Shown here in pieces: positions 38,717 to 60,040 of a stretch of 64,000 bases of DNA. The translations under genes were made by a program, and so were the position numbers. The notes below the pieces were generated by a model. It ran no database searches. It was not told the DNA's origin and saw only the letters and a list, made by a program, of their open reading frames with translations. This DNA is from Candidatus Tepidiaquacellales bacterium OLB4/UTCHB1 (lineage in GTDB: Bacteria; Bacteroidota; Ignavibacteria; Tepidaquicellales; Tepidaquicellaceae): positions 1 through 64,000 of the forward strand of contig MWSW01000005.1 in assembly GCA_002050165.1 (NCBI GenBank), in the 5' to 3' direction. Every line of letters starts with the position of its first letter. Position 1 is the stretch's first letter.

Positions 38717-40090
38717 TTAAAATGCAGCATCAAGTGAGAGGAAAATATTTGCGTTACTTTTATTTCGCCACCCGAAATCAATTCTTCCAATAAAATTAAA
38801 CGGAAGGATTACATTTAAGCCAAGTCCATAACCATTTCTAAATACGAAATCTGAAATTTTCGTTCCCCTGCTCCAAACCGTACCTGAATCGAAAAATAAA
38901 GTAAAAAACAATCCATACCTATAAGAGAAATCTTTCAGAACAGGAAGGTTTCTTATAACAGGAAGTTTATTGCCATCAATATAAGATGGTTTCACGATTG
39001 GAAACCTTAGTTCAGATGACATGACTAATCTAGATTCCTCGCTAAAATATAAATCTTTCCAACCTCTGATTTCTTCACTCTGACCTAAATCCAGCTTCAA
39101 ATATTCCGGAATGCTTCCACCAAAGGAAACGGAAGAGGAAAATTTCCATGCCCAGTTTACATTGAATTCACTAAATAATGGCAGTTGAAAGTATCTTTTG
39201 TATTCAGAATTTATCCGAACGAAATCAACTGACTTAGTAAATAATCCATATTTTACAATCTTCAAATTGTATAATGCACCTTGATTTGGATAATTTTGTA
39301 TATCCCTTGTATCGTAATTTACAGTGCCATTTAGATTAACAAATCTATCTTTTCCATCGGCAGACCCTGTGAGACCCGCAATACCGGAAATACCGGTATT
39401 GTAAACAAAAAAGCCAGCTCCAAATGAAACGGATAAATTTTTCGAAAAATACCTTGATATTGATAAATCGGATTGAAACTGATCCAATTTATAAAGCGGC
39501 AAGTCCTCAATTTTAGATTCCTTTATTTCTGCGACTGAGTCTATGTATCTTTTATTCGTTCTGGAATATCCAATACTCACTTCAAATGAATACCTGCTAC
39601 TATCTCCAATCCAGGGATTTTTATAGTATGCCTTGACAAACGGATCATAACCAATTCCAAAACTAAGTCCTAATTTTTCGTTCATACCGCGAAAATTGTT
39701 GTGAACAATATTCAAGCCACCCCACAATTTTTTGAAAGAATTTTCTTTAATACCTCCTTGAGGAATTGGTAATAAATAAAAAGATTCGCTGAAATCAAAA
39801 AGTATAATTATTGAATCTATGCTTACAGGAACAGGTTGTACCTCAATTTTTGTAAATAATCCGAGATTGTATAAGCGATTTACATCAGACTCCAATTTTC
39901 TGATATCAAGTAACTCCCCTTCCTTAGTTGAAAGCTCCCTCATAATAACCTGCTCATTAGTCTTTTCATTACCAGATATTAAAATCCGTTTGACATAAAC
40001 ATCAGGAATATTAATTGAATCCGTTTGAGCTATAGTGAAATCAAGTTGCAATAGTAAAAGTGCAATGCTGGTGAAAAAATAATACTTCAC
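38717..40090 (-). CDS. Omp85-family outer-membrane protein with one POTRA domain
   Basis: 457-aa protein with a signal peptide (about 1-21). VYVKRILISGNEKTNEQVIMRE through NLGLFTKIEVQ is one POTRA domain (about 30-105). Beyond residue 130 lies a 16-strand-like barrel with repeated short amphipathic strands; SEEIRGWKDLYFSEESRL is the VRGY/F-like plug motif (here IRGW). BamA has five POTRAs, so this is a smaller relative of the TamA/Sam50 or surface-antigen type. It is co-directional with the DUF2723 gene (stop/start overlap of 1 nt). Confidence 0.87.
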   Translation of the reverse strand: MKYYFFTSIALLLLQLDFTIAQTDSINIPDVYVKRILISGNEKTNEQVIMRELSTKEGELLDIRKLESDVNRLYNLGLFTKIEVQPVPVSIDSIIILFDFSESFYLLPIPQGGIKENSFKKLWGGLNIVHNNFRGMNEKLGLSFGIGYDPFVKAYYKNPWIGDSSRYSFEVSIGYSRTNKRYIDSVAEIKESKIEDLPLYKLDQFQSDLSISRYFSKNLSVSFGAGFFVYNTGISGIAGLTGSADGKDRFVNLNGTVNYDTRDIQNYPNQGALYNLKIVKYGLFTKSVDFVRINSEYKRYFQLPLFSEFNVNWAWKFSSSVSFGGSIPEYLKLDLGQSEEIRGWKDLYFSEESRLVMSSELRFPIVKPSYIDGNKLPVIRNLPVLKDFSYRYGLFFTLFFDSGTVWSRGTKISDFVFRNGYGLGLNVILPFNFIGRIDFGWRNKSNANIFLSLDAAF

Positions 40091-42009
40091 TAATTTCCTT
40101 TTTCTCTGTTTGATTTCATTTGATTGATTACATTTTCCAATCTATTCATATCAGGATTTCCTGGTTCAATTTGATTGACCTTATCGAGTAATTCCGATGC
40201 TTCCTCTAATCTATCCTGATTGATTAAATAATTTGCCCTGTTTAAAAAACCCTGTATGTAGGCGTTCCTGATAAATGAATGGTGATATCCTTCTCCTTTG
40301 GGAATAGTATATTTATATTTCAAACCAGGATTTCCAGGACTATCATTTATTTTTGCGTACCTGATAAGCACACCTTCTGGAATCTTATAATATTTTTGAC
40401 CAAACAATTCTATTTGATTTTGCTCAACCTCAAACGTAGTGAAAAATTGTCTGTCGTCAATGTTTTTGTCTACAATACTGTTCTGAAGTTTTAAAAAAGC
40501 TTCCTGAATCTTCTTCAAATCAATATAATCCGATTGAGTTGAAGGATTCGTGTAACGTTTTGGTGATTTTTCAAATTTCAATAATTCTGTTTTGTATTCT
40601 TCAAATTCCAAAAATGAACGATTGTAAATTTCTCCATAATTTGATTTTATATAATCCATATACCATGACTTTCTCAAGAGTTCTTTATCAAGAATTATCA
40701 GGTCAGGTCGGATATTTTTAATGTAACGATAATAATATGACGCAGCAACAAAGAAATCCCACTGTGATGAATAAATCACTGAATTTTTTGGAGCAGTCTC
40801 AAAAATATTGAAAGTATATTCCTCTACTGAGTAATCTGAACTTTTATCTAGCTCTTTGAAGTGTACCGTAATTACAATCAATGGTATTAAAAATGTCACG
40901 ACTGCAAATTTTACCTTCGCGGCAGAAAACTTCATTAATATGAAATCAAAACCATACGTAATCCAGATCCCGGTTGTAATAAATGCCAAAAGAAAATAAT
41001 TATCTATATCGTAAATATCATAATTTATAGCGTAAACTATATTGGACACGAAAAGTAAAACTGTTAAATTTAAAATTGTTCTGTTAAGTTTGAAAAGATT
41101 AAAAATTCCGAAAAATGCAATCAACAATGGAAAATAGAAAAATTCTTTTGGATACATTGACAAGAAATAATCAAATTGTTTCTTCATGTTTTCCGTACCA
41201 GAAAACATCCAAACGCTAAACTGCTTTCCGGTTATATGTCCCCAAAATCCAGACCAAGTATGAGGATTTCCCCAATTGGATAGAGAGTTTGGTGATCTCA
41301 CCGGAAGGTACAAATAAATACTTAATCCAATAAGAAAGGGTACAACCATTATTAGTAAACGTTTCACCGATGATTCAGATATTCCGAAATTGGCAAAATA
41401 AAAATAGATCAATCCCACGCTCATAAATATCAATGACAAGTGATTTCCGAAACCCAGACCTAAAAGAAATGCAAAAAGAATAAAGTGTTTCAAGCCTTCC
41501 AACAAATTATATCTGCTTATTAGAACTGCATTTGTGAAAACGTAAAGCAGAACCGAAATAATCAAAATCTGCAAACCGAATACATCGGCGTGATTTGCTG
41601 AACTCCAAAACGTAGATGAAAATGCGAGCGTTAATGTAGATGAAGCAGAGATTATTTCATAAAACAAAGTTCCGGAACTGAAATCGGGTTTTAAATAAGC
41701 AAACAGTAGCAAGAGATATTTAAAAAAAACAAAGCATCCGACCGCGCTTACTATTGCAAACACCAGGTTCATCCTGTAGGCAGGCTCAAACAAAGGTAAT
41801 AGTGATAATACTTTTCCGATAATAGTAAACAGCGGATAACCGGTCGGATGTGCGATAGTTAATTTTATTGCAGCGGTTAACAACTCACCGGAATCAATAA
41901 AATAGACTGTTGGAGCAAGCGTGGAGATGTATATCACTAATGGAATTACAAATGAAACTATTCCGAACAAGTTTCTTTTAATCATTCCAATCATATTATT
42001 TGAACTCAT
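40090..42009 (-). CDS. DUF2723 membrane protein with C-terminal TPR-like tail
   Basis: 639 aa with about ten to twelve membrane helices in the first 390 residues. FIDSGELLTAAIKLTIAHPTGYPLFTIIG is the DUF2723 signature, a family distantly related to GT-C glycosyltransferases (lipid-linked sugar donors). The Asp-Ser-Gly-Glu stretch would hold the catalytic acid. Residues 395-560 are soluble and the last ~60 form a TPR-like pair (NYLINQDRLEEASELLDKV). Its start overlaps the CoA-binding gene by 14 nt. Probable role: glycosylation of exported molecules, unproven. Confidence 0.85.
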   Translation of the reverse strand: MSSNNMIGMIKRNLFGIVSFVIPLVIYISTLAPTVYFIDSGELLTAAIKLTIAHPTGYPLFTIIGKVLSLLPLFEPAYRMNLVFAIVSAVGCFVFFKYLLLLFAYLKPDFSSGTLFYEIISASSTLTLAFSSTFWSSANHADVFGLQILIISVLLYVFTNAVLISRYNLLEGLKHFILFAFLLGLGFGNHLSLIFMSVGLIYFYFANFGISESSVKRLLIMVVPFLIGLSIYLYLPVRSPNSLSNWGNPHTWSGFWGHITGKQFSVWMFSGTENMKKQFDYFLSMYPKEFFYFPLLIAFFGIFNLFKLNRTILNLTVLLFVSNIVYAINYDIYDIDNYFLLAFITTGIWITYGFDFILMKFSAAKVKFAVVTFLIPLIVITVHFKELDKSSDYSVEEYTFNIFETAPKNSVIYSSQWDFFVAASYYYRYIKNIRPDLIILDKELLRKSWYMDYIKSNYGEIYNRSFLEFEEYKTELLKFEKSPKRYTNPSTQSDYIDLKKIQEAFLKLQNSIVDKNIDDRQFFTTFEVEQNQIELFGQKYYKIPEGVLIRYAKINDSPGNPGLKYKYTIPKGEGYHHSFIRNAYIQGFLNRANYLINQDRLEEASELLDKVNQIEPGNPDMNRLENVINQMKSNREKGN

Positions 42010-42400
42010 TTCTGTGAATCAAATAAATACATTCGTCCTCAATGTATTTGATTCCATTTTCTTCTGCAAAAGCTTTCGCCTTTGCATTAATAACTCCGAG
42101 TTGAGTCCAGATTGCATGAGGCTTGTAAGGAAGTGCAGCTATTTCCTGAACGACTTCGGGGAGAAATTCGGGATTCCTGAAAATGTTAAACAGATCAATC
42201 TTCTCCGGCAACTTTGATATTCTTTTCACTATATTAACATCATCAATTTTCTTTCGCCAGAGGTTTGGATTTACCCCATAAACTTTGTATCCCTTCTCGC
42301 TAAGGTATTTACCAATAATGTTTGATGGTCTGTTACTATCACCGGAAAAACCTATGACAGCAATTGTATTAACTTTTTCTAAAATATCTTTCATTCCCAT
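41996..42400 (-). CDS. CoA-binding protein (YccU-like)
   Basis: 134-aa Rossmann-fold CoA-binding domain. TIAVIGFSGDSNRPSNIIG and YLSEKGYKVYGVNPN are the nucleotide-binding start, and IDLFNIFRNPEFLPEVVQEI matches the family. It resembles the N-terminal domain of succinyl-CoA ligase alpha and E. coli YccU. Function unknown. Its stop overlaps the DUF2723 start by 14 nt. Confidence 0.86.
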   Translation of the reverse strand: MGMKDILEKVNTIAVIGFSGDSNRPSNIIGKYLSEKGYKVYGVNPNLWRKKIDDVNIVKRISKLPEKIDLFNIFRNPEFLPEVVQEIAALPYKPHAIWTQLGVINAKAKAFAEENGIKYIEDECIYLIHRNEFK

Positions 42401-42403
42401 TGT

Positions 42404-42438
42404 AAAAAAAGGGTTGCACCAAAGTTGATGAAACCCTT
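42404..42438 (-). terminator. intrinsic terminator after the CADD gene
   Basis: On the minus strand AAGGGTT pairs with AACCCTT (7 bp, loop of about 16 nt), followed by seven T. It lies about 22 nt after the CADD-family stop and just before the CoA-binding gene, so it separates the two units. Confidence 0.8.
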
Positions 42439-42459: not shown

Positions 42460-43146
42460 TTAACTCTGACAAAAATTATTGTAAATACCATCAAGAAAAT
42501 TCCATTGAAACCAGGATGATTTTTCTGCGGTTGATACAACATAATCCGAATTACCACTTTCAGTGCATTTCCTGATGATTGCATTTAACTCATCTTGAGA
42601 GTGATAAACATCAAACTCTTCGTGAACGGTGAAATATTTTAATGCTGTATCAGATTCTATTCCATAATGATGTTTCAACCCATTGATTTTCGTTTTCGCT
42701 ATTTCGGGGATTTGAGATTCATAAGCATAAAGCGCAGCAAGACCGAGCTCATACTGACATGATCTCGATAGTTCGTACATTCCGTCAATCAAAGCTTTCG
42801 TTTCATCGAGTGGTTTTGTGTTTGAAATCTCCTCTTCGCTTAAACCTAGCGATTTAGCAAAATCCAGCCAAAGTGACGGATGATCTTTATATTCGGATTT
42901 ATATCCCTCCTCATCTGAAAGGTTTTGCATCAACATCCGGCGTACTTCTATGTCCTCGCAATTGGAGTGAACACAACTTACAAAGCGAGGGAAATGTTTT
43001 ACGAAGTAATAATACTGTTTTGCGTATTCACGAAGTTCAGTAACTGTGAGTTTTCCTTCACTCCACTTTCTGTAAAACGGATGTTGAAGAAGACTTTTTT
43101 CAGCGATTGTATTATTTAGTAATTCAGAAAACGATTTGTCTTCCAT
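42460..43146 (-). CDS. CADD-family protein, likely self-sacrificing p-aminobenzoate synthase
   Basis: 228-aa heme-oxygenase-like helical protein. It aligns along its length, from memory, with Chlamydia CADD (CT610): LLQHPFYRKWSEGKLT, AKQYYYFVKHFPRFVS, LSDEE, YAYESQIPEIAKTK and YFTVHEEFDVYHS. The Chlamydia enzyme makes pABA for folate from its own Tyr27 using a diiron/Fe-Mn site. Here the matching Tyr is Tyr25 (HPFY), a Lys equivalent to the reported Lys152 is at 151/153, and the metal ligand pattern DEE (78-80), E143, H175/EE and H182 is kept. It is flanked by terminators on both sides and is single. No other folate gene is nearby. Confidence 0.82.
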   Translation of the reverse strand: MEDKSFSELLNNTIAEKSLLQHPFYRKWSEGKLTVTELREYAKQYYYFVKHFPRFVSCVHSNCEDIEVRRMLMQNLSDEEGYKSEYKDHPSLWLDFAKSLGLSEEEISNTKPLDETKALIDGMYELSRSCQYELGLAALYAYESQIPEIAKTKINGLKHHYGIESDTALKYFTVHEEFDVYHSQDELNAIIRKCTESGNSDYVVSTAEKSSWFQWNFLDGIYNNFCQS

Positions 43147-45109: not shown

Positions 45110-48028
45110 TTAAATCACTTCTTTTACATTTCCTTCCGGGATATTCTCTTCATAGCTTTCAATCGAAGGGCATGAGCAAACAAGATTTCTATCTCCGTAA
45201 GCGCTGTCAATTCTGCCGACTGACGGCCAAAATTTGTTCTGCTTCAGATAATCAACAGGATAAGCTGCAATTTCACGCGAATAAGAATGCGACCAGTTGT
45301 CGCTTATAACTGAGTATGCAGTGTGTGGCGCATTCTTCAGCGGATTATCGTTGATATCCATTGCACCATCTTCAATCAGTTTAATTTCTTCACGAATTGA
45401 TATCAGCGCATCGCAAAATCTGTCTAGTTCATCTTTAGATTCTGATTCAGTCGGTTCAACCATCATCGTTCCCGGTACCGGAAACGATACAGTAGGAGCG
45501 TGAAACCCATAATCCATCAATCTCTTCGCTATGTCTTCTACTTCTATTTTGCATGATTGCTTGAACTCTCTGGTATCGAAAATAAGTTCATGGGCAACTG
45601 TCCCGTTTTCAGATGTGTACAAAACTTTATAATATTTCTTTAATTTCGATTTAATATAATTCGCGTTAAGGATAGCAATCTCAGAAGCCTGTTTAAGACC
45701 TTTTGCACCCATCAGCCTGATGTAAGCGTAAGATATAAGTAAAATCAAAGCGCTACCGTATGGTGCAGAAGATACAGCCGTGATACTTTTATCTGATCCA
45801 AGCCCGGTCAGTGAATGACCAGGAAGAAATTCAACGAGATGTTCGGCTACTGCAACCGGACCTACTCCCGGACCACCACCACCATGCGGGATACAAAAAG
45901 TTTTATGTAAGTTCAAATGACAAACATCAGCGCCGATCATAGCCGGACTTGTCAATCCCACTTGAGCATTCATATTTGCGCCATCCATATAAACCTGTCC
46001 GCCGTTATCGTGTATGATTTCACAAATTTCTCTGATTTTTGACTCGAATACACCGTGAGTAGAAGGATAAGTAACCATTAACGCTGCCAGGTCATCTTTG
46101 TGACTCTCAGCTTTTTGCCTGAGATCGTCAACATCAATATTACCGTATTCATCACATTTTACAACAACCACCTTCATGCCAGCCATCACAGCGCTTGCAG
46201 GATTTGTTCCATGAGCAGAAGATGGAATCAGACAAATATTTCTATGACCCACTCCCCTGCTTTTATGAAACGCTCGAATTACAAGTAATCCGGTATATTC
46301 TCCCTGAGCGCCAGAATTCGGTTGGAGCGAAACGCCCGCAAATCCCGTTACCTCGGCTAAATCTCGTTCAAATTTATTTATCAGTTCAAGAAATCCTTTC
46401 GCCTGATCGTCTGGTACGAATGGATGAATGTCAGCAAATTCGGGAAGAGATATACCTTCCATTTCGGTAGTACCGTTTAGTTTCATAGTACATGATCCAA
46501 GCGGAATCATTGAATGCACCAATGATAAATCTTTATTCTCGAGTTGTTTCATGTACCTCAATAATTTTGTTTCGGACCTGTAGATGTGAAACACCGGATG
46601 TTCGAGATATTTACTCTCGCGTCTTAATCCTGCAGGAAAAGCAGAATTAATATTGCCAAACTCATCTAACATTTTTGCATCTCCGAACTCTTTACCGGTG
46701 GCAACGGCAAATACGCTACAAATATCAATTATATCACTGAGCTCGGTAACCTGATTTATTGAAACAAGGATAAAACTATCACCATACCAAAAGTTCATCT
46801 CCTTTTTCAAAGCCTCTTCACGCACACGTTCAATCAATTCACGATTGTCTATATTAATTTTCAGTGTATCAAAGAAAACCCTATTGGATTGTTCGATACC
46901 GAGAGTTTTAAGATTGTTGTTCAATAAAATTGCAAGTTTATGTATTCGATCTGCAATTGCTTTCAGGCCTTCCGGACCATGGAAAACCGAATACATGCCG
47001 GCGATAACTGCAAGCAACACTTGTGCTGTACAAATGTTACTTGTAGCTTTATCCCTTTTAATATGCTGCTCCCTTGTTTGTAACGCCATTCTTAAAGCTT
47101 TATTACCATGGACATCAACTGAAAGTCCTATAATTCTCCCGGGAATAAATCTTTTGTATTTATCACGTGTAGCGAAAAATGCTGCATGTGGTCCACCAAA
47201 GCCCATTGGAATTCCGAATCGCTGCGAAGTTCCTACCACGCAATCAGCGCCCATTTCACCAGGTGGTTTGAGCAAAGTCAGACTTAATAAATCCGCAGCA
47301 ACACAAGTTAATATTTCCAACTTGTTCGCATTTGAAATTAACTCTGTGTAATCGTAAACCTGCCCTTCACCCGATGGATATTGCAAAAGCATTCCAAAAA
47401 TATTTTCGTTTAATTCAATATTCCGGTGATTACCGATTACAACTTCAATACCAAGTGGTACAGCTCGTGTTTTTATAACCTCGATAGTTTGAGGGTAACA
47501 CTCTTCTGAAATAAAAAATACATTTGAAGATAATCTATTTTTCGGTCTTAACGTATAAAACATAATCATAGCTTCGGCTGCGGCTGTACCTTCATCCAAC
47601 AGCGATGCATTTGCAATTTCCATTGATGTCAGGTCAAGGATTACAGTTTGAAAATTTAATAACGCTTCAAGACGCCCTTGTGAAATTTCTGCCTGATATG
47701 GAGTGTATGCAGTGTACCAACCGGGGTTTTCAAGTATATTTCGCTTAATTACGGGTGGCAATATGTTCGGATGGTAACCAAGTCCGATAAAAGAGCGGAA
47801 CACCTTGTTTCTTCCGGCTAAATTTTGAATGTGATGGTGATACTTATTCTCGCTAAGCGGTTCGTCAAGCTCAATGTCTTTTTTTAACCTTATATCCTGT
47901 GGTATCGTGTGTTCGATTAACTTCTCAACAGAAGCGACGCCGATTTCCTTCAGCATTTCTTTGATTTCACTTTCACTCGGTCCGATATGCCGCTGATTAA
48001 AATTGGTTTTTACTTTATAGTTTTGCAT
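45110..48028 (-). CDS. gcvP: glycine dehydrogenase (decarboxylating), P-protein
   Basis: 972-aa homodimeric-type P-protein of the glycine cleavage system. N-terminal half: [53 protein letters not shown]-terminal half: [37 protein letters not shown] and the PLP lysine in [21 protein letters not shown]. It releases CO2 from glycine and passes the aminomethyl group to H-protein. gcvT and gcvH are not in the window. Both halves intact, no frameshift. Confidence 0.97.
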
Positions 48029-58771: not shown

Positions 58772-59689
58772 ATGTCACCTGACATTTTAATATTTCAATC
58801 TGGTAAATTAGGGGATATGGTTTTGACCACTCCCCTTTTTTTTAATCTAAAAATCATTTTTCCGGACTCTAAGATAACTGTGATCTGCAGTCGCTATAGC
58901 TCAGAAATTCTTAAATACAACAAAAACGTAGATAATATTCTTATCATTGATAAATCTCTTTCGGGATACATGAAAGTATTCAAAAAACTCAGACAATTGA
59001 AATTCGATTACTTTATTGACGTTAATCCGGACAGATCGAAAACATCGAAAATTTTTCTTGGAAGGGTTAGAGCGGAAACCTCGTTGGGATATTCAAATGA
59101 TATTATCAATTTCGATGTAAATCTGAGTAACTACAATAATGGATTTCACTACACTGAACTTTCTACAGCATCATTAAGATTCTTTGCTCCTGACTTTACA
59201 CCCAATCTTACACCAAAGTTATACTTTCCAACATCAGGTTCAACAATGTTAAAACCAAATGTACATTTAAATATGTCTGCCGGGAAAAAGGAAAGAAATT
59301 GGGGCTTAGGAAATTATGAGAAATTACTAACACATATTTTAGGAGAATACAATTTAAATATTTATATTAATTGTCTTGAATTAAAGATTGTTAAGGAACT
59401 TAAATTAAAGCTTAACTCAAAGAGATTACATTTCCATAAAGCCAGTATCGAAGAGTTAGCTTACTACATTAAAAGTTCAGATTTTGCAATTTCACCTGAC
59501 ACACTTGCAATTCATATTGCATCTGCATTTAATACACCTGTAATTGGATTATATAACAATGTTGAATGGAATTACAAAAGATTTTCACCCTTGTCAGAAA
59601 AGCAGGAAGTAATTGTTTCGAAGAGTAGAGATTCAATCATGGATATTAGTGTGGATACGGTATTGGAAAGTATTCAAAGATTAATATAG
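58772..59689 (+). CDS. glycosyltransferase family 9 (heptosyltransferase-like)
   Basis: 305-aa GT-B protein. LIFQSGKLGDMVLTTPLFFNLK is the GT9 N-terminus with the conserved GD. HLNMSAGKKERNWGLGNYEKLL and KSSDFAISPDTLAIHIASAFNTPVIGLY hold the donor-site text of heptosyltransferases. It adds a sugar to lipid A-core or another glycan in the inner membrane/cytoplasm. It starts immediately after the yidC stop and its stop abuts the 3' end of ssrA on the other strand. Confidence 0.86.
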   Translation: MSPDILIFQSGKLGDMVLTTPLFFNLKIIFPDSKITVICSRYSSEILKYNKNVDNILIIDKSLSGYMKVFKKLRQLKFDYFIDVNPDRSKTSKIFLGRVRAETSLGYSNDIINFDVNLSNYNNGFHYTELSTASLRFFAPDFTPNLTPKLYFPTSGSTMLKPNVHLNMSAGKKERNWGLGNYEKLLTHILGEYNLNIYINCLELKIVKELKLKLNSKRLHFHKASIEELAYYIKSSDFAISPDTLAIHIASAFNTPVIGLYNNVEWNYKRFSPLSEKQEVIVSKSRDSIMDISVDTVLESIQRLI

Positions 59690-60040
59690 TGGAAATGCCG
59701 GGAGTCGAACCCGGGTCCGGAATGAAGCCAATCAAAACCTCTACATACATAGTTTATTTTAAGAATTTCACAGTAGCTATAAAACAAACAAAATTCACAC
59801 CTGTTAGTCTGTAAATCTTAGCCGAATGTAACAGACATTAATCCGGAGCAGTTCATCAAGTTGGCATTTTCAAAGTTCCGATGAACGGAGAACAAAGAAA
59901 ATGTAGTTGCTTTTTTTAATTAAGCAGCTAAGGCGTAGTTATTTTCGCCAGTTGTTTTTTTCTGCCGTTTTTATGTGATGGCAGCAACACAGTATGCAGT
60001 TTCAATCCTCTTTGCACCCCGTCGAAGCCGTTTCATTCCC
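59690..60040 (-). ncRNA. ssrA: transfer-messenger RNA (tmRNA)
   Basis: The minus-strand 5' end starts GGGAATGAAACGGCTTCGACGGG and the 3' end reads GGGTTCGACTCCCGGCATTTCCA, giving the tRNA-like acceptor stem (7 bp with one G-U pair) and T-loop. The internal reading frame GGC ... TAA (59920-59949) encodes GENNYALAA, ending in the proteolysis-type LAA. CCA is not encoded and must be added. It rescues stalled ribosomes with SmpB (smpB not in this window). Length is about 351 nt. Confidence 0.95.

Follow-up and report, generated by a model that had tools for sequence, protein, structure and literature searches.

A probable CADD-type p-aminobenzoate synthase in an Ignavibacteria genome and the distribution of its family across the class

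The CADD locus

The window analysed here is a stretch of 64,000 nucleotides from contig MWSW01000005.1 of Candidatus Tepidiaquacellales bacterium OLB4/UTCHB1, whose genome (2.42 Mb in 19 contigs) is 99.3% complete. Its minus strand carries an ATG-started open reading frame for a 228-residue CADD-family protein, the only CADD copy in the genome. As listed in Table 1, the gene lies upstream of a CoA-binding domain protein and a TMEM260-like membrane protein, and all neighbours from rsmE (37996) to gcvP (48028) share its strand. The 972-residue open reading frame that we take to be gcvP was recognised by inspection and would encode the P-protein as one fused chain. Three genes (orf116, a HAD hydrolase and a YvlD-like protein) lie between it and the CADD gene, which is not clustered with fol genes. 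A tmRNA gene with the tag peptide GENNYALAA is also present in the window (59687-60040, minus strand).

The original prediction described the gene as a single-gene unit between terminators. The downstream half of this claim held, as a hairpin (42409-42438) and U-run follow the gene, whereas the upstream candidate was no better than shuffled sequences (z +0.3). A simple terminator scan did not report the downstream hairpin, probably because of an internal mismatch.

Gene order was also compared among relatives. Of 12 same-family relatives, at least 8 have gcvP directly upstream of CADD across a gap of roughly 100-250 bases, and the order gcvP-CADD-CoA_binding-TMEM260 occurs on one strand in same-family relatives. 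In the sister family, CADD adjoins TMEM260. In the window's family, this placement of gcvP next to CADD is probably the ancestral one. Since GcvP is part of the THF-dependent glycine cleavage system, the CADD locus belongs to a one-carbon-metabolism neighbourhood. A one-carbon gene is likewise found beside the Nitrosomonas europaea enzyme NePabS (NE1434), whose gene adjoins glyA (PMC11965152).

Table 1. Positions of the CADD gene, its predicted functional codons, its neighbours and the compact relatives found in other genomes. Coordinates refer to the window unless a locus is named.
Feature	Coordinates	Strand	Basis or remark
CADD-family self-sacrificing pABA synthase gene (predicted)	42460..43146	-	228 aa; homology, family score, residues, model
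Tyr25 codon, predicted sacrificed tyrosine (CADD Tyr27, NePabS Tyr25)	43072..43074	-	Alignment and equivalent in PMC11965152
Glu79 and His89, first ligand pair	42880..42912	-	Alignment
Tyr142 (metal-selectivity position, CADD Tyr141) and ligand Glu143	42718..42723	-	Alignment
Lys153 codon, predicted amine donor (CADD Lys152, NePabS Lys159)	42688..42690	-	Alignment and PMC11965152
Tyr171 (metal-selectivity position, CADD Tyr170)	42634..42636	-	Phe in 39/43 full-length relatives
His175, Asp179 and His182, third-helix ligands (HxxxDxxH)	42601..42624	-	Alignment
Intrinsic terminator downstream of CADD gene (AAGGGTT...AACCCTTTTTTT)	42402..42438	-	Hairpin and U-run, -13.5 kcal/mol, z -2.0
CoA-binding domain protein (PF13380)	41996..42400	-	Conserved downstream neighbour
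TMEM260-like membrane protein (PF11028)	40090..42009	-	Conserved downstream neighbour in family and sister family
gcvP, THF-linked glycine dehydrogenase	45110..48028	-	ORF, identified by inspection of sequence
Mini-CADD, L042	5654-6208	-	
Mini-CADD, L043	6009-6563	+	
Mini-CADD, L044	5251-5802	-	
Mini-CADD, L045			
Mini-CADD, L046			
Mini-CADD, L052	1501-2055	+	
Mini-CADD, L053			
Mini-CADD, L054	1501-2025	-	

Family membership and fold

We compared the window protein with solved structures, family models and a predicted structure. In a phmmer search against solved structures, residues 6-222 matched CADD of Chlamydia trachomatis (CT610, 1RCW) with an E-value of 2.3e-46, bearing out the prediction that the product matches Chlamydia CADD along its length. 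The 4-aminobenzoate synthase sequences 8va9 and 9pj4 matched at a similar level (6e-46 for 9pj4, which is NePabS-type), and scores then fell steeply to BesC (3e-16) and PqqC (8e-9). The protein scored 259.9 bits on the NCBIfam model TIGR04305 (fol_rel_CADD), passing its cut-off of 200. Membership of the PqqC, TenA and BesC families was also considered and rejected on the NCBIfam cut-offs of each (PqqC, 61.6 of 240 bits; TenA, 36.9 of 130; BesC, 70.1 of 500). An AlphaFold2 model (pLDDT 93, pTM 0.90) has the heme-oxygenase-like seven-helix fold and superposes best on C. trachomatis CADD (TM 0.89/0.95, rmsd 1.5, 38% identity), other proteins of the fold matching less well.

The window gene is a new, fully standard member of the CADD family. 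It was expected to be a case outside Chlamydia, which it is, and such cases have already been published: environmental CADD enzymes include NePabS, for which both in vitro and in vivo validation exists, and the same paper lists Chloroflexi, Sphingomonas, Wolbachia and Rickettsia among the carriers (PMC11965152).

Catalytic residues and the predicted reaction

In the alignment, the window protein agreed with CADD at all key positions. CADD residues Tyr27, Tyr43, Tyr47, Glu81, His88, Tyr141, Glu142, Lys152, Tyr170, His174, Asp178 and His181 correspond to identical residues in the window protein (Tyr25, Tyr41, Tyr45, Glu79, His89, Tyr142, Glu143, Lys153, Tyr171, His175, Asp179 and His182, respectively), and the Tyr47/Trp92 relay is also preserved. 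The dimetal site is complete, with three histidines and three carboxylates (Glu79, His89, Glu143, His175, Asp179 and His182). Across 43 non-identical full-length relatives, Tyr27, Tyr43, Tyr47, Trp92, Lys152 and all six ligands (CADD numbering) were invariant, such that none had lost the sacrificial tyrosine, the lysine or a ligand. The original assignments of Tyr25, of a lysine at the Lys152 position and of the metal-ligand pattern agree with these results. Mutagenesis and proteomics of NePabS identified Tyr25 and Lys159 as the residues it consumes and Tyr41 as essential (PMC11965152).

By analogy with the published enzymes, the dimetal centre held by these six ligands, predicted to be Mn/Fe, would activate O2, and the oxidising equivalent would pass via aromatic residues to Tyr25. 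The side chain of Tyr25 would then be cleaved from the backbone, leaving glycine, and oxidised to the benzoate, with Lys153 supplying the amino group. Overall, pABA would be formed with O2, metal and reductant as Tyr becomes Gly and Lys becomes aminoadipate, and each protein molecule could yield at most one pABA, which FolP would couple to pterin. Unlike the chorismate route of PabA, PabB and PabC, which has the same product, the CADD route needs O2 and uses up its own protein.

The choice of metal can be considered separately. Changing both Phe148 and Phe177 of NePabS to Tyr shifted its metal use from Fe/Fe to Mn/Fe; as single mutants, Phe148Tyr worked with both metal types and Phe177Tyr produced a switch (PMC11965152). 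Whereas NePabS has Phe at both positions, the alignment places Tyr at both equivalents in the window protein (Tyr142 and Tyr171), which is the pattern of the Mn/Fe subtype and of CADD. We therefore predict a Mn/Fe-type enzyme on the strength of one published mutant series. Full-length relatives carried Tyr at position 141 in 42 of 43 cases and Phe at position 170 in 39, with Tyr at 170 in only 4, and so by the same mutant series most relatives are predicted to have a mixed metal preference. One full-length, very long-branched relative (L066 in G200) has Val in place of Tyr141 and keeps all sacrificial residues and ligands. A pABA synthase using Fe/Fe as NePabS does, which would alter the cofactor step only, could be argued from the identity of the primary ligands in NePabS and CADD, and from the view that a free-living organism does not need to save iron (PMC11965152). 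We consider this unlikely, without being far-fetched, given that the window protein has the CADD-type tyrosine pair and that the double Phe to Tyr change in NePabS gave Mn/Fe (PMC11965152). The clade offers a ready panel of natural Tyr and Phe states for testing the Mn/Fe selectivity model.

When placed in context of the two characterised enzymes, the window protein resembles CADD/CT610 (1RCW, 8VA9; Mn/Fe) in fold, sacrificial Tyr and Lys, six ligands and the Tyr141/Tyr170 pair. However, CT610 comes from a host-dependent pathogen and the window enzyme from a free-living environmental Ignavibacteria lineage, where it has a gcvP context and lacks a fol cluster. The loop that separates its Glu79 and His89 ligands is also three residues longer than in CT610. 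NePabS (9PJ4; Fe/Fe) shares the environmental origin and the same residues, but an additional loop of some 10 residues sets it apart from the window protein.

Folate synthesis in the host genome

The gene had been proposed to act in place of PabABC, and a search of the genome for the canonical enzymes was consistent with this. Chorismate_bind (PF00425), which was detected in all 14 control genomes, had no match in the window genome, implying that PabB, TrpE and MenF are absent by homology. Aminotran_4 (PF01063) also had no match, leaving no PabC, and no protein exceeded the 121-bit cut-off of the PabA/TrpG model TIGR00566. The best two matches to this model (55 and 51 bits) sit in open reading frames of 522 and 364 residues, sizes that correspond to GuaA and CarA. 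Dihydropteroate synthase (folP) and HPPK (folK) are both present, so that the genome does have the pathway in which pABA is used. Because PabB/TrpE, PabA/TrpG and PabC are missing while folP and folK remain, CADD appears to be the only recognisable source of pABA in this genome, and apparently also in most of its relatives. There are also four COX1-family matches, and the host likely respires O2. Together, FolP, FolK and the COX1-type oxidases fit the O2-dependent route to folate that had been suggested.

With 19 contigs and 99.3% completeness, gaps of a single gene are possible, and a canonical PabABC pathway might have escaped the draft assembly, making CADD redundant or a second route. Yet PabA, PabB, PabC and TrpE would all need to fall in gaps, and PF00425 is also absent from about 35 near relatives, several of which are 98-100% complete. 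We regard this explanation as scarcely credible.

Apart from folate, the lack of Chorismate_bind and Aminotran_4 proteins means that TrpE and IlvE-type aminotransferases are missing as well. Absence of TrpE suggests that the organism is probably auxotrophic for tryptophan.

Distribution across the class

To place the gene in its wider context, we surveyed 197 genomes of the class, in which CADD or a compact relative was found in 62 and Chorismate_bind in 123. The two were almost mutually exclusive: 57 genomes had CADD without Chorismate_bind and 118 had Chorismate_bind without CADD, with both present in 5 and neither in 17 (Fisher p 4e-28, a value that ignores shared ancestry). The swap can be seen within a single genus (g28 of family f11), where G052, G109, G121 and G132 have CADD without Chorismate_bind and G070, G079 and G088 the reverse, and it recurs within family f19. 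In 3 of the 5 genomes with both, the Chorismate_bind protein tested was TrpE or TrpE-like rather than PabB. Those of G162 and G170 exceeded the TrpE cut-off; that of G171 matched TrpE best but fell below it, and this genome has a second, unclassified Chorismate_bind match. All 62 genomes with CADD have COX1, versus 128 of 135 without, a difference in the expected direction that was not significant (p 0.1) because nearly all genomes have COX1.

In a broader sample of the phylum, the gene was found in 32 of 395 genomes, 31 of them in the window's class. The protein tree follows family lines, from which CADD looks vertically inherited in this lineage. The window protein adjoins those of G013 and UBA6667 (support 100/99), the latter classified by NCBI as Ignavibacteriota, Candidatus Tepidaquicellales.

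We asked whether the protein, though homologous to CADD and within the heme-oxygenase-like dimetal oxidase (HDO) superfamily, might instead perform another oxidation, as PqqC-, TenA- or BesC-like enzymes do, in a host that imports pABA. PqqC, TenA, UndA and BesC do share the fold, and 17 genomes of the class live without CADD or Chorismate_bind. Against this, the pABA-specific residues (equivalents of Tyr27, Tyr43 and Lys152) are retained by every full-length relative, the PqqC and BesC profile scores lie far under their cut-offs, and a different oxidation would not predict mutual exclusion with Chorismate_bind. We judge it very unlikely. Our preferred reading, to which we assign a probability of about 92%, is that the window gene encodes a bona fide CADD-type p-aminobenzoate synthase replacing PabA, PabB and PabC in its host. 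This estimate combines the sequence, fold, conservation, PabABC absence, FolP and FolK presence, class-wide exclusion and gcvP synteny observed here with chemistry and residue sacrifice carried over from published orthologues.

The 17 genomes with neither system (e.g., G007, G014, G023, G025 and G035) deserve separate consideration. Of these, 16 have folK, and folP is present in several of those searched for it. A combined profile, read up to an E-value of 1, revealed no third, more diverged HDO in them beyond one chance-level match (E 0.09). Since G023 and the single-contig G025 have no COX1 either, it is simplest to suppose that CADD was lost under anaerobic life and that pABA is salvaged. 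A third pABA route of unknown nature is possible. That nearly all of these genomes keep folK points to salvage or an unknown route among relatives, and either could operate in the window organism too.

If CADD acts as predicted, a one-shot, O2-consuming suicide enzyme is probably the standard source of pABA for a large share of this class. It would then not be peculiar to intracellular pathogens and a single nitrifying bacterium, and its protein cost and O2 dependence would become a general question of vitamin metabolism. Our literature searches for CADD in Ignavibacteria returned nothing relevant, and in the literature searched we did not find the extent of PabABC replacement in the class, the natural metal-selectivity states or the compact clade described.

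Compact relatives of CADD

Five same-family genomes without full CADD (G008, G019, G026, G027 and G028) contain a 184-residue relative, here called mini-CADD, as do three other genomes of the class (G106, G130 and G197; loci in Table 1). These proteins are about 30-34% identical to the window protein, and their profile matched CADD first (8e-23), then NePabS (4e-18), with PqqC at only 0.003. Unlike the window protein, they score at most about 96 bits (range about 65-96) of the 200 required by TIGR04305 and thereby escape this model. Tyr27, Tyr43, Tyr47, Trp92, Lys152, Glu142 and the three histidines are kept in 8 of 8. A loop deletion reduces the first ligand pair, on helix 1, to ExxH, helix 3 reads HxxExxH versus HxxxDxxH, and the 141/170 pair is Phe/Tyr throughout. 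The eight proteins form one group on a long branch of the protein tree (100/100 support), and Chorismate_bind is absent from 6 of the 7 mini-CADD genomes searched.

Judged from these sequences, we lean toward mini-CADD being a compact class of self-sacrificing pABA synthase with respaced ligands, which would replace PabABC where full CADD and Chorismate_bind are both absent. If so, nature would supply all four states of the reported metal switch: Tyr/Tyr in the window protein, Tyr/Phe in most relatives, Phe/Phe in NePabS and Phe/Tyr in mini-CADD. These compact relatives, missed by current family models, may define a minimal catalytic core.
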